From SAR202 cluster bacterium (GTDB taxonomy: Bacteria; Chloroflexota; Dehalococcoidia; Lucifugimonadales; UBA826), in NCBI GenBank assembly GCA_022447825.1, contig JAKUTY010000009.1:1-59274 (forward strand): DNA of 59,274 nt, read 5' to 3'. Below, piece after piece: positions 7,031-21,585 of the stretch. How positions within the stretch are numbered: the stretch's first letter is position 1; each line of letters starts with the position of its first letter. The position numbers and the translations under genes are program-made. The notes beneath the pieces were generated by a model, which was not told the DNA's origin, searched no databases, and saw only the letters and a program-made list of their open reading frames with translations.

Positions 7031-7501
7031 TTAAAAATTTACCCATTTACCTTGATAAAACATCAAAGGCTTTCCGTTATTTACGACTATTTCTGTGACT
7101 TCTCCTATAAAGATCGTATGATCACCTTCTGAGTGTGTACGCACTACGTTACAGTCCATGCTAGCTAAGGAATTAGATAAAAATGGAGAATTATTTTTGC
7201 TCATATAGAATTCAGATAAAATGTTTTCAGGTATTTCCTGGTTGCTTTTGGCAAAGAACTTACCTGTTTCTATTTGATCTTCTGACAATATGTTAATCGC
7301 ATATTTCATGTTTTTAGTAATAATTTTATGCGTTTGTGCTGAATGACCCACCGAAACCATAACTAACATAGGGTCTAATGAAATAGAAGCAATTCCATTC
7401 GCAGTCATTCCATGGATTTCGTTGTTATTTTGAATACTAGTAATAACTGAAACTCCTGTTGCAAAATTACTCCAAGCTTCTCTGAACAAATCAGATTGCA
7501 T
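7031..7501 (-). CDS. Flavin reductase domain protein (HpaC/HsaB-like)
   Basis: FMN-binding split-barrel reductase of 156 residues. The family segments WSNFATGVSVIT, GMTANGIASISLDP and NILSEDQ are visible. Members use NAD(P)H to reduce FMN or FAD for a partner flavin monooxygenase. The start at 7501 is preferred over the ATG at 7522 because GAGGAG lies six bases upstream. The gene is transcribed away from the catabolic operon at 7669. A group-D monooxygenase-like protein is encoded at 15245, so a two-component oxygenase is possible but not shown. Confidence 0.85.
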   Translation of the reverse strand: MQSDLFREAWSNFATGVSVITSIQNNNEIHGMTANGIASISLDPMLVMVSVGHSAQTHKIITKNMKYAINILSEDQIETGKFFAKSNQEIPENILSEFYMSKNNSPFLSNSLASMDCNVVRTHSEGDHTIFIGEVTEIVVNNGKPLMFYQGKWVNF

Positions 7502-7568
7502 AGTTATCTCCTCAACTAACATTAATACTTTTATCAGGGCGATTATAACGATTTATTAGTTTAAATTA

Positions 7569-7668: not shown

Positions 7669-7905
7669 ATGTCGACTAAAGCTTTTATATTGATAGAGAC
7701 TGGTGTAGGCAGTACTCAGTCTGCTTATGAGTCGTTAATTAACATGAATGATGTTGTCAGTGTCGATCTAGTAACTGGGCCATATGATTTGATAGCTATA
7801 ATTTCTTCTTCTGATCTTAATGCAGTTGGAGATTTGGTAACTAACCAAATTCATACAATATCAGGAATAGTCAGGACAGTTACATGTTTAGGCATTAAGG
7901 AATAA
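7669..7905 (+). CDS. Stand-alone Lrp/AsnC ligand-binding (RAM) domain protein
   Basis: A 78-residue protein consisting only of the RAM fold: an N-terminal AFILIETG strand, a central VVSVDLVTGPYDLIAII segment and a closing IVRTVTCLGI strand. In Lrp/AsnC regulators this domain binds amino acids and forms octamers. Here there is no helix-turn-helix, so it cannot bind DNA by itself. It is first in the operon, 41 bases before the first acyl-CoA dehydrogenase, preceded by GGGAG. It may sense a pathway metabolite or modulate another regulator, which is inference. Confidence 0.85.
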   Translation: MSTKAFILIETGVGSTQSAYESLINMNDVVSVDLVTGPYDLIAIISSSDLNAVGDLVTNQIHTISGIVRTVTCLGIKE

Positions 7906-7946: not shown

Positions 7947-9116
7947 ATGAATTTCAGTTTAACTGACGGAGAGGCTACTTTTAGAGATGAGTTAAGATCT
8001 TGGCTACAATCAGAGTTAGGGGACAGAAATGAAGATGATGAAACTCCTGATGAAGCATGGGACTTTACACTCAAAATGAGAAAAAAGCTTGCTGATAAAG
8101 GTTGGCTGACTATGGCTTGGCCTGAAGAGTATGGTGGACAAGGGGCATCTCATATGATGCAAGTCATTTTTGCTGAAGAAATGTCTTATTTTCGAGCTCC
8201 GGGAAGAGATGTGTTTGGAACTAGAATGATGGCCCCTACATTAATGATTCATGGGACTGACGAACAGAAATCTGAATTTTTGCCACCTGTGTCTAGTGGA
8301 GAAGTTCAGTGGTGTCAGGGATATTCTGAACCTGAGTCGGGTTCTGACTTAGCTTCATTACAAACTAGAGCAGTAGAAGATGGCGATGATTTTATAATTA
8401 ATGGAACTAAAATTTGGACTTCTGGTGCTCATAGGGCAGATCACATAATGGTTCTCACTAGAACAGACCCTGATGCTCCTAAACATAGAGGAATAAGTTT
8501 TTTGTTGTGTGACATGAACACTCCTGGATTGACTGTTAATCCAATTATTAATATGGCGGGTGACCACAGTTTTAATATGGTAACTTTTGATAACGTTAGA
8601 GTTCCAAAGAAAAACTTAGTGGGAGAACAGAATCGTGGGTGGTATGTAGGTGCAACATTATTAGATTTCGAGAGATCTGGTGTAGATTACTCTGCTGGAT
8701 CTCGAAGAGTTTTGGAAGAACTAGTAGGCTACTCAAAAGAAAATTACAAAGATGGTAAATTACTATCTGAGGATGAAGTTACAAGAAACCGGCTAGCGGA
8801 TCTCGCAATTGAAATTGAAGTAAGTAGACTGATTTCTTACAATATTGCTTGGATGCAGGGTGCAGGATTAGTTCCTAATAAAGAATCTTCTATGGGTAAA
8901 GTTTTTGGAACTGAATTGCAACAACATGTTGGCTCTACTGGAATGCAAATGTTAGGATTGCACAGCCAATTAGAACCTGATTCAAAATACGCACCGTTAA
9001 GAGGCAGAATCGAGCATTGGCATTTAACAAATGTTTCTGAAACAATTGCAGCTGGTACTTCAGAAATACAACGAAATATTATTGCAACAAGAGGTCTTGG
9101 ATTACCTAGAGGATAA
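7947..9116 (+). CDS. Acyl-CoA dehydrogenase (FadE-like), copy 1
   Basis: Flavin-dependent alpha,beta-dehydrogenation of an acyl-CoA thioester. The 389 residues show the N-terminal helical domain, a middle barrel with GYSEPESGSDLASLQT (125-140) and NGTKIWTSGA, and a C-terminal helical domain ending AAGTSEIQRNIIA. The MCAD catalytic Glu position is Ala369. Glu242 in LDFERS aligns with the alternative catalytic Glu of isovaleryl-CoA dehydrogenase. The RTQFGRPI FAD-contact motif is missing. It is a close paralogue of the next gene (20-base gap). The substrate is unknown; steroid- or terpenoid-like acids are possible by analogy. Confidence 0.92.
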   Translation: MNFSLTDGEATFRDELRSWLQSELGDRNEDDETPDEAWDFTLKMRKKLADKGWLTMAWPEEYGGQGASHMMQVIFAEEMSYFRAPGRDVFGTRMMAPTLMIHGTDEQKSEFLPPVSSGEVQWCQGYSEPESGSDLASLQTRAVEDGDDFIINGTKIWTSGAHRADHIMVLTRTDPDAPKHRGISFLLCDMNTPGLTVNPIINMAGDHSFNMVTFDNVRVPKKNLVGEQNRGWYVGATLLDFERSGVDYSAGSRRVLEELVGYSKENYKDGKLLSEDEVTRNRLADLAIEIEVSRLISYNIAWMQGAGLVPNKESSMGKVFGTELQQHVGSTGMQMLGLHSQLEPDSKYAPLRGRIEHWHLTNVSETIAAGTSEIQRNIIATRGLGLPRG

Positions 9117-9136
9117 ATCAGAAAACGGAGATAAAT

Positions 9137-10312
9137 ATGGATTTTAAATTTGAAAATGAAGATGAAAAATTTAGAGAAGAAGTAATTGATTTTATTGATA
9201 AAGAGCTCCCTTGGGATTGGAGAAATTTGGATTTAGATGCTGAAGATGATGATGACAAAATATTAGTTCGTCAGTTTAAGAAAAAGCTGGGCGAAAAAGG
9301 ATGGCTAACTATGGCTTGGCCAGAAGAATATGGTGGTCAAGCTGCATCTCACATGAGGCAAGTCGTTTTTAATGAAGAAATGGCTTACAGAGGAATTCCG
9401 GTAGGTGATGCAGGGATTAGAATGGTTGGTCCAATTTTGATGTTATATGGAACTGATGAGCAAAAAAAACAATTTCTACCTCAAATTGCAGGCGCAGAAA
9501 TTAACTGGTCTCAAGGATATTCTGAACCTGATTCCGGTTCAGATTTGGCATCTCTTCAGACTAGAGCTGTTGAAGATGGAGACGATTTTGTTGTTTCTGG
9601 ATCTAAAATATGGAACTCGGCTCATGCTGATTCGGATTGGATGTTTATGTTAGTTCGAACTAATCCTGATGCTCCAAAACATAGAGGGATAAGTTTTGTG
9701 TTGACAGAATTAGAAGGAACTGAAGGAGTCACTATTGAGAAAATTCCTATGATGTGGAATGCATATAGAGGCTTAGCAACATTTAGTGATGTCAGAATTC
9801 CTAAGAAAAATCTGGTAGGTGAACAAGATCGAGGTTGGTACGTAGGTGCAGCTCTTTTAGATTTTGAGAGATCAGGAGTAGATAGACCTGCAAAAGCTAA
9901 AAAAGTTTTGGAAGATTTAGTCCAATTCTGTAAAACTCACCAAAAGAATGGAAGATTACTATCTGAAGATCCAATTATTAGAAGAGAATTAGCTGATTTA
10001 GCAGTACAAATCGAAACTACTAGATTAATGTGCTACAACGTTGCTTGGATGCAAAGTAAAGATTTGATTCCAAACATGGAAGCCTCTATCACTAAAGCTT
10101 ATGGAACTGAAATGATCAATCGATTATATGGATTAGGAGTGAAGATTATGGGGATTCATGGACAATTAGAACCTGAATCTAAATGGGCACCATTAGCAGG
10201 TAGAATCGAAAATGCTTGGTTAAGATCATTCGGAGGAATGGTTGCAGCAGGAACATCTGAAATACAACGAAGTGTAATTGCTACTCGAGGATTAGGACTT
10301 CCTAGAGGTTAA
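9137..10312 (+). CDS. Acyl-CoA dehydrogenase (FadE-like), copy 2
   Basis: 391 residues and clearly a tandem paralogue of the preceding gene. The shared stretches are GEKGWLTMAWPEEYGG, GYSEPDSGSDLASLQT, GEQDRGWYVGA and the C-terminal TSEIQR-IATRGLGLPRG. The MCAD Glu site is Ala371, and Glu244 in LDFERS is the likely base. Like copy 1 it lacks the RTQFGRPI motif. Conserved active-site features in both copies suggest that both are working enzymes or subunits, not one decaying duplicate. A good Shine-Dalgarno (ACGGAG) precedes it, and the next acyl-CoA dehydrogenase follows after 21 bases. Confidence 0.92.
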   Translation: MDFKFENEDEKFREEVIDFIDKELPWDWRNLDLDAEDDDDKILVRQFKKKLGEKGWLTMAWPEEYGGQAASHMRQVVFNEEMAYRGIPVGDAGIRMVGPILMLYGTDEQKKQFLPQIAGAEINWSQGYSEPDSGSDLASLQTRAVEDGDDFVVSGSKIWNSAHADSDWMFMLVRTNPDAPKHRGISFVLTELEGTEGVTIEKIPMMWNAYRGLATFSDVRIPKKNLVGEQDRGWYVGAALLDFERSGVDRPAKAKKVLEDLVQFCKTHQKNGRLLSEDPIIRRELADLAVQIETTRLMCYNVAWMQSKDLIPNMEASITKAYGTEMINRLYGLGVKIMGIHGQLEPESKWAPLAGRIENAWLRSFGGMVAAGTSEIQRSVIATRGLGLPRG

Positions 10313-10333
10313 TTCACACACAAGGAGAAAAAA

Positions 10334-11458
10334 ATGGAATTAGGATTAAACGAAGCTCAACAGATGCTGAAAAACAGTGCTCAAGAGTTTTTAGAAACAG
10401 AATGCACTGTAGATTATGTTCGTGCTATGGAAATAGATGAAAATGGATACACTCAAGAAGTATGGCAAAAAGTTGCTGAACAAGGTTGGTTAGGTCTAAT
10501 TATTCCGGAAGAATATGGTGGAGTAGGATTGGAATATCAAGATTTAACAATTTTACTTGAAGAAATGGGACGATATATGCTTCCCGGCCCATATTTTTCA
10601 ACTGTTGTTTTGGGTGGTATGACCATTAATGACGCTGGAACTGAAGAGCAAAAGAAAGAATTGTTACCTAGAATTTCTGAAGGTCAAATTAACATTACTT
10701 TAGGTTTGACTGAACCGAGTGGGAGAATTGATCCTTTAGGAATAGAAACTACTGCTACTAAAACTTCTGAAGGGTATGAAATTAATGGTACAAAATTGTT
10801 TGTATTAAATGGACATGTTTCAGATTATATTTTGGTAGTTGCAAGAACTGGAGACCAAGACACAGACATTAGTATTTTTAATGTTCCAATGGATGCCGAC
10901 GGTGTTACTCAAACTCTTCTGAAAACCATTGCTTCTGATAGGCAATCTGAGGTTATTTTAGATAATGTCAAAGTATCTTCTGACGCATTATTGGGAGAAT
11001 TGAATCAAGGGTGGGATACAATTGAACGGGTTTTACAATGGGCAGCCATTGGAAAATGTGCAGAAATGTCTGGTGGCGGCCAAAAAGTTCTAGATATGAC
11101 AGTAGAATACGCTAAACAAAGAACTCAATTTGGTAGGCCTATAGGAAGTTTTAAGGCTATAAAACATCATTGTGCGAATATGGAAGTAGATGTAGAAGGT
11201 TCAAAGTTTATTACTCATCAAGCAGCATGGAAACTTTCTGAAGGTATTGATGCAGATAAAGATGTCGCTATGGCTAAAGCATGGGTTAGTGACGCATTAC
11301 GAAGAGTTTGTGCTTTAGGTCACCAATCTCATGGAGCTATAGGTTTTACTAAAGAGCATGATATGCAACTGTATTCCAGAAGAGCGAAAGCAGCAGAAGT
11401 TATCTTTGGAGATACAGATTTTCATTTAGAAAAAGTTGCAACACACATAGGCCTTTAA
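10334..11458 (+). CDS. Acyl-CoA dehydrogenase family protein, third subunit type
   Basis: 374 residues, more distant from the two preceding genes. The middle-domain GLTEPSGRIDPL segment and the FAD-contact motif RTQFGRPIGSFKAI (263-276) are present. Neither known catalytic Glu is retained: the YEGT position reads IFGDTD, and the isovaleryl-CoA dehydrogenase position falls in VLQWAAIG. The pattern resembles the non-catalytic partner in mycobacterial alpha2beta2 acyl-CoA dehydrogenases used on steroid side chains. It may therefore pair with copy 1 or copy 2, which is inference. AAGGAG precedes the ATG. Confidence 0.88.
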   Translation: MELGLNEAQQMLKNSAQEFLETECTVDYVRAMEIDENGYTQEVWQKVAEQGWLGLIIPEEYGGVGLEYQDLTILLEEMGRYMLPGPYFSTVVLGGMTINDAGTEEQKKELLPRISEGQINITLGLTEPSGRIDPLGIETTATKTSEGYEINGTKLFVLNGHVSDYILVVARTGDQDTDISIFNVPMDADGVTQTLLKTIASDRQSEVILDNVKVSSDALLGELNQGWDTIERVLQWAAIGKCAEMSGGGQKVLDMTVEYAKQRTQFGRPIGSFKAIKHHCANMEVDVEGSKFITHQAAWKLSEGIDADKDVAMAKAWVSDALRRVCALGHQSHGAIGFTKEHDMQLYSRRAKAAEVIFGDTDFHLEKVATHIGL

Positions 11459-11469
11459 TAGGATTAATT

Positions 11470-12237
11470 ATGTCTTCAAAATTATTTGACCTAACTGGAA
11501 AAACTGCAATAGTCACTGGAGGGAATGGTGGAATTGGTTATGGAATGGCTTCTGAAATTGGAAAAAGTGGAGCTAATGTAGTAATCACTGGAAGAAATTC
11601 TGACAAAACTAAAGAAGCTGTTAATGAACTAAAAAAATCATTTGATAATGTTATAGGAATTGATTCAGACGTTTCTGATGAATCTTCTATTAAAGACATG
11701 ATTAAAATTTCAAATGAAACTTTTGGTTCTATAGATGTATTGATAAATAATGCTGGTATTGGGATCAGGGAATTTCCTGAAAACTACAGTACTGATGATT
11801 GGAATCAAGTAATAAATATCAATTTAACAGGTGCTTTTTTATGCTCTCGCGAAGTTTATCCAATTATGAAATCCCAGGGATCAGGAAAAATTATTAATAT
11901 AGGTTCAATGACCTCTATTTTTGGATTAGATTGGGCTGTTGCTTATGCTTCTAGTAAGGGTGGAATAGTACAATTAACAAAAACTTTAGCAGTATCTTGG
12001 GCCAAAGATAATATTCAATCAAATTGCATTTTGCCTGGCTGGATTCATACTGATTTAACGCAAGGGATTAAAGATCAATTCCAAGATAGGTACCAACAGA
12101 TATTATCTAGAATTCCTTCAAATAGATGGGGTGAACCAGACGACCTTGCTGGAACTGCTGTATATCTTTCATCATCCGCATCAGATTATGTTAATGGAGT
12201 ATCTATAGCGGTAGATGGTGGGTACACATCTTTCTAA
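11470..12237 (+). CDS. Short-chain dehydrogenase/reductase
   Basis: Classical SDR of 255 residues. The NAD(P) motif TGGNGGIG is at 17-23, the NNAG motif at 93-96, and the catalytic set is Ser146, Tyr159 and Lys163 (YASSK). The C-terminal VNGVSIAVDGGYTSF is typical of FabG-like enzymes. After acyl-CoA dehydrogenation and hydration it could oxidise the 3-hydroxyacyl-CoA, which fits its place 11 bases after the third acyl-CoA dehydrogenase. The actual substrate is unknown. Confidence 0.92.
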   Translation: MSSKLFDLTGKTAIVTGGNGGIGYGMASEIGKSGANVVITGRNSDKTKEAVNELKKSFDNVIGIDSDVSDESSIKDMIKISNETFGSIDVLINNAGIGIREFPENYSTDDWNQVININLTGAFLCSREVYPIMKSQGSGKIINIGSMTSIFGLDWAVAYASSKGGIVQLTKTLAVSWAKDNIQSNCILPGWIHTDLTQGIKDQFQDRYQQILSRIPSNRWGEPDDLAGTAVYLSSSASDYVNGVSIAVDGGYTSF

Positions 12238-12238
12238 G

Positions 12239-13033
12239 ATGCCTATGACTGAAGAAATACTTTTTGAAATCAATGATGGTATAGCTAGGGTCACATTTAA
12301 TAGGCCTGATCAACATAATGCAATTAATTTTGATGGTTGGAAAAAGTTGATTCAAATAGTAGAAAAAATCAAAAACAATCAAAATTGTAAAGTTGTGATT
12401 TTTTCAGGTTCAGGTGGTAAATCTTTCTCTTCAGGTGCAGATATTAAGGACTTTGAAACTAATAGAAAAGATTCTGTGAGTGCCCAAAATTACTCAGAGT
12501 ATTTTGATGGTGCATTAGATGCTATTGAATCATTAAGTATTCCTACTATTTCTAAAATTAATGGAATTTGTGTAGGTGGTGGGTGTGAACTTTCTATGGC
12601 TACTGATATTAGAATTGCATCTACTAAAAGTAAATTTGGGATTCCTGTAGCTAAATTAGGTATTTTAGTAGGGTATCGTGAGATGAAAAGGTTGTTGAAT
12701 TTAGTAGGACCTGGAAATGCTTCATATGTGTTGCTCAGTGGGCGAATTTTTGATTCTACTACTGCTTTGTCTATGGGCATGATTACTCAAATGTGTGAAG
12801 AAAACGACTTGGATGCGATAGTAGAAAAATTAGCAGAAGAAATGCTTCCATTAGCTCCATTGTCACAAGAGAGACATAAGAAAATTTTGCAAACTGTAAT
12901 AAACAACCAATCTTTGGAAAATTTATCGGAAGATGATTCTTTTTTACCTTTTTCTAATTTTGACAGTCTTGACTTTCAAGAAGGTAGACAATCTTTCATA
13001 GAACGAAGACCACCGAATTTTAAGGGTGAATAA
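12239..13033 (+). CDS. Enoyl-CoA hydratase/isomerase (crotonase) family protein
   Basis: Crotonase fold of 264 residues. The oxyanion-hole segments SFSSGADIKDF (62-72) and INGICVGGGCELSMATD (108-123) are clear. The start is placed at 12239 because the upstream ATG at 12215 overlaps the SDR by 23 bases. The two hydratase Glu residues appear to be lost: FGQPE reads FGIPV (Val137), and the second Glu lies where SYVLLSG is found. It is therefore probably not a standard hydratase; an isomerase, hydrolase or lyase of the superfamily is likelier. It abuts the CoA-transferase gene. Confidence 0.88.
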   Translation: MPMTEEILFEINDGIARVTFNRPDQHNAINFDGWKKLIQIVEKIKNNQNCKVVIFSGSGGKSFSSGADIKDFETNRKDSVSAQNYSEYFDGALDAIESLSIPTISKINGICVGGGCELSMATDIRIASTKSKFGIPVAKLGILVGYREMKRLLNLVGPGNASYVLLSGRIFDSTTALSMGMITQMCEENDLDAIVEKLAEEMLPLAPLSQERHKKILQTVINNQSLENLSEDDSFLPFSNFDSLDFQEGRQSFIERRPPNFKGE

Positions 13034-14242
13034 ATGCCTCAAAAACCTTTAAGTGGAGTCAATATATTAGATTTGTCTCAAATTATGGCAGGCCCATACT
13101 GCTCTCTATTATTGGCAGACATGGGCGCAAATGTAATTAAAGTTGAAAAACCTAATGGCGGAGATGATACTCGTAGAATGGGTCCTCCTTTTATAAATGG
13201 AGAATCTGCCGCTTTTTTGGGAGTAAATCGCAATAAGCGAAGCATAGTAATTGATTTCAAAAATCCTGATGGAGTTAAATTAATAAAGCAGTTATCTAAA
13301 AAATGTGATGTTTTGATACAAAACTTTAGACCTGGAACTCTTCAGAAAATGGGTATGGGATATGAAGATATTAAAGCTGAAAATCCATCAATAATTTATT
13401 GCACTATTTCTGGATTTGGATCCACAGGTCCTTACAAAGATAGGGCAGGTTTTGATCTAGTTACACAGGGCATGAGTGGATTAATGAGTATTACTGGAAG
13501 TGATAAAAATACTCCGACAAAAATTGGGGTACCAATTACAGATTTGAATTCCGGCATGTATGCAGCTTATGGAATTTTAAATGCTTACATTCACAAATTA
13601 AAAACTAATGAAGGACAGCATGTAGATGTTTCTTTGCTAGAAAGTGGAATTGCTTATACTTTTTGGGAATCTGCAGAATTTTTTGCTACTGGTTCAACGC
13701 CTCAGCCTATGGGAACTGCACATAGGTTGAATGCACCTTATCAAGCATTTAAAACATTAGATGGTTATGTGAATGTTGGTGCTGCCAATCAAAGAAATTG
13801 GGAGAGATTATGTGATGCTATTCAAAGATCTGACTTGTTGAATAATCCTCTTTTTACAGATAATTCCCTGAGGATGAAAAACATTCATGATCTCGTAGAA
13901 GAAATTCAAAAAACTATATTAAATAAGTCTACTAATGACTGGTTAGATATTTTTGAAGAATTTGGTGTTCCTTCTGGTCCTATTTTGAACATACAAGAAG
14001 TTTTTGAAAATGAACAAGTTATTTCAAGAGATATGATGATTAAAACTGCTCACCCAATTGCTGGTGAAATTTCCAATATTGGTATTCCTGTCAAATTATC
14101 AGAAACACCTGGAGAAATATATAAATCTGCTCCAGTTTTAGGAGAAAATACTATAGAAATTTTAGAAGAGTTCGATTTTTCTAAAAAAGATATTGATGAT
14201 TTGTTAAATAATGGAGCTGTAGTATCGAATCTCAATGATTAG
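13034..14242 (+). CDS. CaiB/BaiF family (type III) CoA-transferase
   Basis: Moves CoA between an acyl-CoA donor and a free acid, generally to activate the acid for beta-oxidation-like steps. The 402 residues show the N-terminal family block DLSQIMAGPYCSLLLADMG, the KVEKP motif and NRNKRSIVIDFK. The catalytic Asp is Asp198 in HVDVSLLES. It is encoded directly after the crotonase gene with no gap and overlaps the PhzF gene by eight bases. It is a good candidate for the entry step of this operon's pathway. Confidence 0.93.
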   Translation: MPQKPLSGVNILDLSQIMAGPYCSLLLADMGANVIKVEKPNGGDDTRRMGPPFINGESAAFLGVNRNKRSIVIDFKNPDGVKLIKQLSKKCDVLIQNFRPGTLQKMGMGYEDIKAENPSIIYCTISGFGSTGPYKDRAGFDLVTQGMSGLMSITGSDKNTPTKIGVPITDLNSGMYAAYGILNAYIHKLKTNEGQHVDVSLLESGIAYTFWESAEFFATGSTPQPMGTAHRLNAPYQAFKTLDGYVNVGAANQRNWERLCDAIQRSDLLNNPLFTDNSLRMKNIHDLVEEIQKTILNKSTNDWLDIFEEFGVPSGPILNIQEVFENEQVISRDMMIKTAHPIAGEISNIGIPVKLSETPGEIYKSAPVLGENTIEILEEFDFSKKDIDDLLNNGAVVSNLND

Positions 14243-15244: not shown

Positions 15245-16408
15245 ATGGTTAAATTAGAAGCAAAACAAGATTCACAGTTTTTAGATTTCACAACTAGCAT
15301 TGTGCCAGAAATCAAAAATAGAGTTTCTGAAATTACTGATTCTCGACAAATACCTATTGATTTGATTCATAAAATGGCAGACGGAGGGTTATTTAGACTA
15401 TATGTACCGAAGTCTGTTGGTGGTCACGAAGTCAGTTTTGTTGAGTTTTTGAAATTGGTAAGTTTAATTGCTCAAGCAGATGCAAGTGTTGCTTGGTGTT
15501 TTAACCAGAATAATGTATTAGCTACCACTTCAGGGTTTATGCATAAATCACTAGCTGAAAAAATTTGGTCGGATCCTAGAGCAATTCTTTCAAATGGTCC
15601 ACCCATTTCACCAAATGCAATTCCTGTAGAAGGTGGATATAACCTTTCTGGTAGATGGAATTTTAGTAGCGGTTCTAGGCATGCGACTTGGGCATTAGCT
15701 ATAGCTCCTATTTCAGGCAGAATTGGAAGTAATGGATCTGATTCTAAAGAAATGCGAGATATGTTTATTCCAAATAATGAAGTTGACTGGGTTGATACAT
15801 GGGATGTGAACGGATTAAGAGGTACAGGAAGTTTTAGTTTTACAGTAAATGATAAATTTGTTCCAGAAGAAAATACTTATGTTCTAGGAGGCCCCCCTGT
15901 TGCTGAAGGCCCTTTATATTTGTTTTCTAGGACTTTATTGTTTTGTGCAGGATTTGCTACTACTGCATTAGGGGCTGCTAGATCAAGTATTGATTCATTG
16001 ATAGGAGATACATCATCAAGAACTCCACAAGATCAAAACAAGCTTTCCTTACAGCCATTTACTCATAGAGAATTAGGTCAAGCTGAAGCTATATGGAGAT
16101 CTGCTAACTCGTATTTAAATGAGGCGGTAGAAGAACTTTGGGATCAAGCAATTAATGACAGAAAGTTGCAAGAAAAATCTAGAGTAAATTTAAGGCTTGC
16201 AAGTACTCATGCTATAAGAGAGGCAGTAAGAGTAACTGATATTATTTACAATTTATCAGGTTCTACTGCAATTTTTGAATCCACACCAATACAAAGAAAA
16301 TCTCAAGATGTGAGAGCTATATCTCAACAAATTCAAGGTAGAATGGCTCATTATGATACGGCAGGTCAATTCTTTTTAGGATTAGAACCTGAGGTTAAAC
16401 TTTATTAG
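15245..16408 (+). CDS. Acyl-CoA dehydrogenase-fold flavin monooxygenase (group D-like)
   Basis: 387 residues with the acyl-CoA dehydrogenase fold and the C-terminal domain type of HsaA/HpaB2/DszC oxygenases. Visible blocks are GLFRLYVPKSVGG, the ADASVAWCF helix, SGRWNFSSGSRHATW in the barrel, and WDVNGLRGTGSFSF. The C-terminus has AVRVTDIIYNLSGSTAIFE, typical of the group and lacking the YEGT base. Such proteins use reduced flavin from a partner and O2 to oxygenate aromatic or sulfur substrates. The flavin reductase at 7031 could supply it. A dehydrogenase role is less likely. Confidence 0.75.
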   Translation: MVKLEAKQDSQFLDFTTSIVPEIKNRVSEITDSRQIPIDLIHKMADGGLFRLYVPKSVGGHEVSFVEFLKLVSLIAQADASVAWCFNQNNVLATTSGFMHKSLAEKIWSDPRAILSNGPPISPNAIPVEGGYNLSGRWNFSSGSRHATWALAIAPISGRIGSNGSDSKEMRDMFIPNNEVDWVDTWDVNGLRGTGSFSFTVNDKFVPEENTYVLGGPPVAEGPLYLFSRTLLFCAGFATTALGAARSSIDSLIGDTSSRTPQDQNKLSLQPFTHRELGQAEAIWRSANSYLNEAVEELWDQAINDRKLQEKSRVNLRLASTHAIREAVRVTDIIYNLSGSTAIFESTPIQRKSQDVRAISQQIQGRMAHYDTAGQFFLGLEPEVKLY

Positions 16409-19096: not shown

Positions 19097-20467
19097 ATGA
19101 TTGATTTAATGTCTATTGCAAAAACTGAAGCTGACGGTGGAGATCTTTTAGGTCTTTTAGGAGAATTGTTTGAACCTGCAGAAGTGAAACCTGATGGTTA
19201 TCCTGATGCAGTAGTATGGAAAGGCGGTAATCATGATGGATCAGTTAATCCCGTTGCTCATTCATTAACAGATGCTTATGCCCTTTTAGGGACTATCGCA
19301 GCTGTGGATGTATTGGGCCTACCTTTTTATGGTGTTCCAATGTGGTCTCAAATACGACATGATTCAAAGCTGGAAGCTTTATCTTGGTTTGGGAATATGC
19401 CATGTACTTCAATCAAATGGTCTACTGCAGGTGATGCTTATGTGACTGATACTGATGGAAGCAGGGTTGTAGTGATGGGAAAGTCTGGAAATGCCCCATT
19501 GAGAACTCAAGCTGGAGTTTATTGTAATGTTAGGCCTTATGGTCCAATTACAGTTGTTAGGTGTATGCCATGTCTTCCATATTCTCAAAATAAACCGAAA
19601 TTTGAGGTGGATACAAATGGAGTAGTTCATTCAGAAATGAATACCCCAGGTGTACAAATGGCATACGCAAACAGGCTTTTCTTAAAACTTGTTCATGAGA
19701 CTGGTTCTGTAGGAAGAGTAGCTACAAAACCCACCCAAGCTATGGAAGATGGAATTAATGCAGGATTACATTCTTGGTTGCTTCAAGGGACCAAATTTCA
19801 AGTAGGAAGAAAGTATGCTGTTGATCCTTATGAAGAACATAAGGAAAGCATTCAAAAAATAATTGATTTGCTTCCTAGTGATTTTAAAGATGGTATGGAA
19901 AATTGGGGAGGACGAATAGAACAGCATATTTCTGACACTAATTACGGTTTGTTAATTTGGGATTTGATTGAAAAGCAAGACACCATAGTATTAGCTACTG
20001 ATTTAGATGGAGATAGATTAACAGACTTGTTAGCAGATATTTCTGATCCACTCAGAGCTTTTGGAGGTATGGTTGCAAAGCATTTAGGCCAAGATATTAA
20101 TATGCGAAATGTTTGGTCAGATATGGGATATGTGACAGGAAATGGTAGAGACATGACTTCTGTAATGCATCGTATGGATGGTCCTCCAATTCATGAACAA
20201 ACATTAGGTTCAGCCGATGCAATGTTATTGAGGCTTTTGGACGGTGACGAATGGGTAGGTGGAACAAAACAACCTTATGATCCTAGAATTCACTTCGTAT
20301 TGATAAGAGATGCGTATATTGATGCAAATCCTGGAAATGCTGAATTGAAAAAATGGTTAGATGATGCTCTAGATACTTTTGATGATGTATATAGCGGTGA
20401 CAGGCCTGGATTCTTGCAAGGTTATGAAGCTTTAAAGAAGGCTATAACTCCTTGGGGATCAAATTAA
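19097..20467 (+). CDS. Uncharacterised 456-residue protein
   Basis: I do not recognise this protein. Its start is supported by GAGGTGA just upstream. It has no signal peptide, transmembrane segment or repeats and looks soluble and globular. Features are a WKGGNHDG segment near 41-48, Cys103, Cys143 and a CxxC pair (156/159) in RCMPC, an ATDLDGDRLTDLL stretch in the second half, and a Gly-rich TGNGRDMT loop. Codon use resembles the neighbours. It stands alone between a divergent luciferase-like gene and a bidirectional terminator. Confidence 0.8.
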   Translation: MIDLMSIAKTEADGGDLLGLLGELFEPAEVKPDGYPDAVVWKGGNHDGSVNPVAHSLTDAYALLGTIAAVDVLGLPFYGVPMWSQIRHDSKLEALSWFGNMPCTSIKWSTAGDAYVTDTDGSRVVVMGKSGNAPLRTQAGVYCNVRPYGPITVVRCMPCLPYSQNKPKFEVDTNGVVHSEMNTPGVQMAYANRLFLKLVHETGSVGRVATKPTQAMEDGINAGLHSWLLQGTKFQVGRKYAVDPYEEHKESIQKIIDLLPSDFKDGMENWGGRIEQHISDTNYGLLIWDLIEKQDTIVLATDLDGDRLTDLLADISDPLRAFGGMVAKHLGQDINMRNVWSDMGYVTGNGRDMTSVMHRMDGPPIHEQTLGSADAMLLRLLDGDEWVGGTKQPYDPRIHFVLIRDAYIDANPGNAELKKWLDDALDTFDDVYSGDRPGFLQGYEALKKAITPWGSN

Positions 20468-20511: not shown

Positions 20512-21585
20512 TTATGGTTTTAATTCCTCGATAATTTCTTCAAGTTGTCTAATTTGATTTTCTAGTTCATTAATTCTTTGTTCGAACTCTTTAAACATTT
20601 CTGACATTTCATCTTTATTTTTCGGTTTTATTTCATCTAATTGCCCTATCGATGAAACTGAACTGTTGTCAGTAATTTGAATAGATCCTTGTGGAGCATC
20701 TTTAGGTAGTTTTGATAACTGATCTAATTGATCATTAGATGAAATATTATTATTTGCAGCTATAATTAGAGATGAATTTTCTCCAGAGCCAATCATCCTA
20801 ACACGACCTTCACTGTCAATCACAAGTGTATCTCTTCCTGCTGGATCAAATGTCCGGAGTTTACCACTTGACTGCATTCTGGTTTGTTCTGTAGATCCGC
20901 CTGCATTACTAAATTCTCTACGTGCCATAGAAGCACACTCAGAGAGCGCTAAGCCTGAGGTTCTGTTATTTGACATACATGCAGACATTGTTGAGGAGGC
21001 AGCTTTAGTAGATGCCTTAACGATCGCAACTTCAACTTCTGATGATTTTCCTTCAGCATCTAGATAGGCTTGTTCAGAAATTTCTTTGCACATAATGTTT
21101 ATGCTTTTTGAAGGGATATCTTTATTGGCTTCATCTAAGCAAGTTTTCATAGTCAGAATGGAATCTGCAATATCATTTTGTACATCTTCAAGATCCCCGT
21201 TACTAGATAGGTTTCCGTGATAAATGTTTTGAGAAATTTCTTTACACATTTTTTGTGTCTGTTGATTGAATGTCACATTGTCGTTTGTCATTTCATCGCA
21301 TGTTCTCATAGCACTAATAGCTTTGTCTCGAGAGTCATCAAAAAGAAGAGTCTCTATTGCTTGATTTTCAGCTTCCTCAATATTTATAGCAGTAGATTTT
21401 CTTAGATCTAATTCATCAAGGCATTGGGAAAACAATTGTTTATCTAAAAGTAATTCAGTGCATTCTTTTATTTTTTGTTCTTTCATATCAATTTCATTTT
21501 CACCTGTTGCTAGACCCACAGCATTACATCCTACAAAGATTGCAGAAACTACTATTGCTAATAAAAGACTTGATAAATTTTTCAT
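20512..21585 (-). CDS. Putative lipoprotein with four Cys-pair repeats and C-terminal coiled coil
   Basis: 357 residues. Residues 1-20 form a hydrophobic signal ending in a lipobox-like FVGC (Cys20), so lipid anchoring is likely. The mature part holds four spaced Cys pairs, 42/55, 96/114, 149/166 and 203/217. The middle two share an MCKEIS core, which suggests a duplicated helical module with a disulfide each. Residues about 325-355 are a strong coiled coil (EQRINELENQIRQLEE). An Asn/Ser-rich linker, with a possible short beta region near 250-275, joins them. Function unknown. It is divergent from the aldehyde dehydrogenase. Confidence 0.82.
   Translation of the reverse strand: MKNLSSLLLAIVVSAIFVGCNAVGLATGENEIDMKEQKIKECTELLLDKQLFSQCLDELDLRKSTAINIEEAENQAIETLLFDDSRDKAISAMRTCDEMTNDNVTFNQQTQKMCKEISQNIYHGNLSSNGDLEDVQNDIADSILTMKTCLDEANKDIPSKSINIMCKEISEQAYLDAEGKSSEVEVAIVKASTKAASSTMSACMSNNRTSGLALSECASMARREFSNAGGSTEQTRMQSSGKLRTFDPAGRDTLVIDSEGRVRMIGSGENSSLIIAANNNISSNDQLDQLSKLPKDAPQGSIQITDNSSVSSIGQLDEIKPKNKDEMSEMFKEFEQRINELENQIRQLEEIIEELKP

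Follow-up and report, generated by a model that had tools for sequence, protein, structure and literature searches.

Three neighbouring acyl-CoA dehydrogenase genes with a complementary active-site split in a likely SAR202 bacterium: candidate heteromers with one shared partner subunit

Heteromeric acyl-coenzyme A (acyl-CoA) dehydrogenases (ACADs) are described, in the accounts consulted, from steroid degraders and as fixed pairs of α with β. In two of them, ChsE4-ChsE5 and ChsE1-ChsE2, the α subunit is reported to bind the isoalloxazine ring of flavin adenine dinucleotide (FAD) and to carry the substrate site as well as the catalytic Glu, with the adenosine diphosphate ribose (ADP-ribose) part of FAD contacted by the β subunit (PMC11153573). 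The Glu of such heteromers is reported from one subunit only, and the heterotetramer is given as essential for activity (PMC8399759). Isovaleryl-CoA dehydrogenase (IVD) is described as having Ala in place of the usual Glu, with a Glu of helix G acting instead (PMC5798300). Here we describe three consecutive ACAD genes, all on the + strand of contig C53, which is 59,274 bases long and is called the window below. Copies 1, 2 and 3 are named α1, α2 and β. Each product contains all three ACAD Pfam domains; the intergenic gaps measure 20 bases (α1-α2) and 21 bases (α2-β), and a purine-rich stretch precedes each start.

7947..9116, + strand: α1, catalytic-type ACAD subunit, 389 amino acids (open reading frame (ORF), Pfam, PDB match, alignment)
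8670..8672, + strand: codon of α1 Glu242, the base on helix G, which pairs with ChsE4 residue 247 (alignment; position computed from the ORF start)
9048..9053, + strand: codons of two α1 residues, Ala368 opposite Tcur3483 Gly363 and Ala369 opposite the Glu of medium-chain acyl-CoA dehydrogenase (MCAD) (alignments)
9137..10312, + strand: α2, the other catalytic-type ACAD subunit, with the WNS motif, 391 amino acids (ORF, Pfam, NCBIfam, tree, alignment)
9866..9868, + strand: codon of α2 Glu244, the helix-G base (alignment; position by arithmetic)
10334..11458, + strand: β, partner ACAD subunit with RTQFG and without catalytic Glu, 374 amino acids (ORF, Pfam, alignment)
11120..11134, + strand: RTQFG codons of β (residues 263-267), predicted contact to the ADP-ribose of FAD (alignment; role from PMC11153573 and general ACAD knowledge)

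An earlier note on the window, made from its letters alone, had claimed that copies 1 and 2 lack the MCAD Glu, keep a Glu at the IVD position and lack the RTQFG FAD-contact motif, and that copy 3 has this motif and neither Glu. Alignment bears out all of these claims. A369 of α1 and A371 of α2 stand in one column at the MCAD position, E242 and E244 in one column at the IVD position, and the RTQFG of β (263-267) has no counterpart in α1 or α2 when they are aligned with their relatives. At the two Glu positions β carries Ala237 and Phe358, and the alignment, checked for a catalytic Glu in copy 3, contained none. E242 of α1 pairs with residue 247 (Glu) of 4x28_A (ChsE4), counted along the printed alignment, and at the site of the Ala of both α subunits the MCAD-like chain 1ukw carries Glu. 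Two other ACADs of the same genome (L002 and L005), used as a control, hold the MCAD-position Glu together with R-x-T-F in one chain, so the loss is confined to α1, α2 and β and is complementary. This complementary residue split is certain.

The split recurs among relatives beyond chance. The ACAD ORFs counted in 117 loci comprise 79 of α-type and 110 of β-type, and the full signature was found in 75 and 107 of them, respectively; 203 ACAD ORFs had been collected, of which 14 were left out of the signature count (6 repeats, 8 partial or weak), and L100, L103 and L130 were dropped from counts as repeats of L070, L084 and L096. In loci L100-L179, scanning with the pattern R[TVI]QFG in part pre-selected the β motif, so the independent evidence there consists of the missing Glu residues only, to which loci L060-L099 are added. 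Exceptions on the α side are Gln (L091) or Met (L126) for the base, ambiguous bases that make the sequence unreadable (L082) and an extra Glu (L097). An extra Glu in L097 and RVQYG for RxQFG in L105 and L121 are the exceptions on the β side; in both of the latter loci (L105:4541-6872 and L121:4781-7134) the gene order is α-β-β and RVQYG lies in the first β. The Gln belongs to the second α of an α-α-β locus (L091:7414-11017), which also has Ser at the MCAD site and, judged by these residues, is possibly dead.

The earlier note had further likened the copies to α2β2 ACADs. This resemblance is sustained by the residue alignment to ChsE4, by the best PDB matches of α1, which are ChsE4 and Tcur3483, and by the published subunit roles. 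The best match of α1 is ChsE4 (4x28_A, E 2.7e-69), and whether α1 or the α profile is compared with PDB, the first three sequences come from 4x28_A and 6wy8/6wy9. Marks of heteromeric ACADs were found at the level of sequence: a helix-G Glu without the MCAD Glu in α, the FAD motif without Glu in β, and adjacent α and β genes. We infer that the subunits pair physically, and an α/β heteromer is very probable. Each α would bind acyl-CoA and the flavin ring and supply the base from helix G (Glu242 or Glu244); β, without base or ring contacts, would hold the ADP-ribose end of the α-bound FAD through its RTQFG loop. Since α has no RTQFG loop and β no base, αα and ββ pairs are expected to be inactive or poor in FAD; the forms predicted to work are α1β and α2β, each as an α2β2 tetramer, with completeness and pairing of αβ predicted by analogy to homologues. 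We thus favour as likely that the locus encodes two heteromeric ACADs, in which α1 and α2 share one β.

Trees and gene neighbourhoods bear on the sharing of β. In the α tree, α1 and α2 fall in separate clades with support of 100/98 and 100/99, so their paralogy is old and does not stem from a recent tandem duplication. (Trees were computed without the near-duplicates L100, L065-L069 and L071; the β tree was also computed without loci above L130.) In the β tree, one clade of 12 rows (97/82) mixes β of differing α neighbours, namely α1 only (G004, G032), α2 only (G037, L102) or both (L101 and the triads of the window's family), and includes a β with no neighbouring α (G020). The window's family, f1, comprises 16 genomes, and the system is present in 14 of them; completeness is 78% and 55% for the other two. 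Tandem α-α-β was found in 13 of the 14, contiguous in 11 and with a contig end inside β in 2; in one triad (G005) the N-terminus of α1 is incomplete near the contig start. Such a constant order, with gaps of 20-62 bp, would also suit an enzyme that needs all three subunits, built as a mixed tetramer α1β-α2β whose two αβ halves have different active sites. We consider this unlikely, as the same β clade occurs with α1 alone and with α2 alone, and as G004 keeps α1-β amid the same flanks (RAM, flavin reductase, GroEL, SDR, i.e. short-chain dehydrogenase) with only α2 missing.

Whole-genome counts point the same way as the trees, towards two α served by one β. The family holds 34 α and 15 β in total, with 2-3 α per genome in most of its members and more α than β in 13 of 14 genomes; the split β of G001 and G012 was counted as one gene each, and matches near 205-222 bits were treated as canonical ACADs, as confirmed in the window's genome (G000) only. 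The minimal sets are α1 with β (G004), an α2-type with β (G043), and α1 and α2 with one β (G000, G041). Five genomes of the family (G003, G008, G010, G012, G014) possess a third α, with the β of the triad as their sole β; G005 has four α and two β, and the more distant G040 has 13 α and 3 β. The latter, Chloroflexi metagenome-assembled genome (MAG) B76T1B5, carries a locus with four tandem α before one β (L113:310-7131). Both types are held by 42 clusters, 15 of them with at least two α, of which 10 are in the window's family. The idea of one partner for two catalytic subunits, which the earlier note had called unusual, thereby gains support from trees and genome counts, and this support is comparative.

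The two α differ in a short motif: WTS is strict in the α1 clade (15 of 15), WN(S/G) is the rule in the α2 clade (18 of 18), and in β the Trp of the α motif WTS is mostly replaced by Phe or Tyr. The deviant WNS of α2, together with the Gln base in the second α of the related locus L091, could be taken to mean that α2 does no more than modulate α1β, as a regulatory duplicate or one without catalytic activity. This is very improbable: Glu244 and its neighbouring residues are kept in α2 of the family, loci with α2-β and without α1 occur (G037, L102), and within the family nonsynonymous divergence (dN) is equally low for α2 (0.10-0.12) and α1 (0.11-0.14); synonymous divergence (dS) is saturated, so no dN/dS ratio is given.

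Several observations weigh against heteromers with a shared β. In PDB comparisons β matches ordinary ACADs better (6fah_C, E 1.3e-47) than Tcur3481 (6wy8_A, 6e-38) or ChsE5 (4x28_D, 2.4e-33); the last two do match β, yet rank below several ordinary ACADs. Among the genomes used above, the α2 and β of L102 lie 1,347 bp apart, G037 carries a further α elsewhere, and MAGs may miss a second β. G042 has 5 α and 6 β, so an excess of α is not a rule. Orphan α without adjacent β were found in L075, L087-L090, L092 and L099. A structure model of α2 fused to β through the natural in-frame linker of 8 residues (alignment of 34 rows, 5 of them in-frame fusions) scored a predicted local distance difference test (pLDDT) of 89.4 and a predicted template-modelling score (pTM) of 0.90. 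Its best Foldseek match was 6wy8_B, a subunit of the Tcur heteromer, and it aligned over 557-568 columns to methylsuccinyl-CoA dehydrogenase, whose extension is described as mimicking the dimer-dimer contact. Such long matches hint at this dimer-dimer contact, and the packing of the modelled halves is not assignable to the FAD interface. A second comparison, mainly of the β half, had 6wy8_A among the matches listed and 4x28 not among them. With the methylsuccinyl-CoA dehydrogenase-like match and the short 8-residue linker, the fused model is no evidence for a shared FAD site; it displays two complete ACAD folds and no more.

The orphan α and the likeness of β to canonical ACADs would also fit α1 and/or α2 acting as homomers without β, with β partnering only one α or being a separate protein. 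We hold this to be improbable, for the R..F motif was found in 0 of 79 α-type sequences, α1 or α2 adjoins β in family members as well as in several less related genomes, and homologous heteromers are reported to require both subunits (PMC8399759).

Substrate and pathway of the two predicted heteromers we infer from the neighbouring genes and from one residue. The flanking genes are:

7669..7905, + strand: stand-alone Lrp/AsnC ligand-binding (RAM) domain protein, 78 amino acids (PF01037, E 1.3e-10), first gene of the apparent operon
11470..12237, + strand: SDR, 11 bp 3' of β; near β in other family loci too
12215..13033, + strand: enoyl-CoA hydratase/isomerase family (ECH), overlapping the SDR gene
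13034..14242, + strand: family III CoA-transferase (CaiB/BaiF type), adjacent in this genome

Together, these neighbours point to a pathway in which some acid receives CoA by transfer and undergoes dehydrogenation, hydration and oxidation. A CoA-transferase after ECH was not found in the other family loci examined, and no thiolase beside the ACAD genes was seen by eye in the ORF lists. SAR202 genomes are described as rich in CaiB/BaiF transferases and SDRs (PMC5395668). That α1 and α2 have different substrates is somewhat favoured; they would probably take different acyl-CoAs, or successive ones in a pathway using the neighbouring CoA-transferase, hydratase and SDR. Gly363 of Tcur3483 is mutated in the G363A variant (6wy9), and the title of the corresponding paper names it a glycine key to side-chain specificity; at this position α1 has Ala368 and α2 has Ala370, and a steroid substrate is thus not implied. 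Assignment to steroids or to fatty acids was rejected, with the key glycine absent and with CoA-transferase III, hydratase and SDR neighbours that fit many acyl-CoA pathways.

Further features of the surroundings were noted. Of 126 ACAD clusters, 27 have a RAM-domain homologue at most 800 bp upstream, irrespective of their α/β make-up, and these 27 belong to loci L060-L121 only; the RAM-domain protein may sense a metabolite of the ACAD pathway. An HsaA-like flavin monooxygenase subunit (15245-16408; match below cut-off) and a flavin reductase (7031-7522) on the other strand lie near the ACAD genes and could form a two-component oxygenase. Two ORFs, 19097-20467 (456 amino acids) and 20512-21585 (357 amino acids), had no Pfam match at E 0.001. 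In another genome of the family (L061:12028-13652) two ABC-transporter-like ATP-binding proteins, recognised by eye, stand between β and SDR.

The window's genome measures 1.38 Mb in 53 contigs and is 97.85% complete, with a guanine plus cytosine (GC) content of 32-38% in 3-kb steps of the window. Streamlined members of the SAR202 clade are described as having a genome below 2 Mb with GC below 40%; small, low-GC SAR202 are reported from sunlit waters (PMC11994032), and the nearest named record is a Chloroflexi MAG (L100). The host is a small-genome bacterium, probably marine and likely within SAR202. If so, the locus belongs to a lineage abundant in the sea, in which expansion of catabolic paralogues is thought to have opened refractory organic matter (PMC5395668; PMC10444878). 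As a tentative extension, which we put forward at somewhat less than even confidence, β in these Chloroflexota might be a common FAD-holding hub for many interchangeable α, including α encoded far from it and perhaps in mixed tetramers, so that substrate range would grow by duplication of the catalytic half only. One helper for several catalytic halves would be an economical widening of what the cell breaks down. It would also give a testable rule: α and β counts can be compared, and an orphan α would be expected to need a β from elsewhere.

Among described enzymes, IVD has a single chain that carries the two halves of the FAD site. The active-site state of α1 and α2 is that of IVD, with the base on helix G and Ala at the usual Glu site; unlike the IVD homotetramer, neither has RxxFG, and a complete FAD site was not found in them. 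The NCBIfam models that fit best are the large and small subunits of pimeloyl-CoA dehydrogenase, PimC (TIGR03204) for α1 and α2 and PimD (TIGR03203) for β; PimC/PimD identity was rejected, as α1, α2 and β score 250, 210 and 230 bits against cut-offs of 623.85, 623.85 and 652.7. FadE31, FadE32 and FadE33 of Mycobacterium tuberculosis, considered as a precedent for a shared partner, were not used; the literature consulted speaks only of FadE32 alone or of FadE31-FadE32. Fic32-Fic33 (PDB 8hk0) was considered as a further heteromer, and a literature search returned no account of it. CasC of Rhodococcus jostii RHA1, a fused ACAD pair, is described as joining a half required for FAD binding and a half with the catalytic Glu (PMC8399759), a division like that proposed here, and differs in being a single polypeptide; it is likened by description only. 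Tcur3481-Tcur3483 of Thermomonospora curvata (PDB 6wy8/6wy9) has the same layout, with α1 and the α profile aligning to Tcur3483 over the greater part of their own length. ChsE4-ChsE5 (FadE26-FadE27 of M. tuberculosis, PDB 4x28) likewise consists of two ACAD chains, its α with a helix-G Glu, without RxxFG and with Gly at the MCAD Glu site; unlike the system proposed here, it has one α per β and a steroid side-chain substrate, and Foldseek aligns it to the fused model at only about 34% identity. No description of a β shared by several α was found in searches confined to open-licence PMC papers. Within the known layout of heteromeric ACADs, the new part would be the shared β and the multiplied α, which, if confirmed, would make this a combinatorial version of these enzymes.

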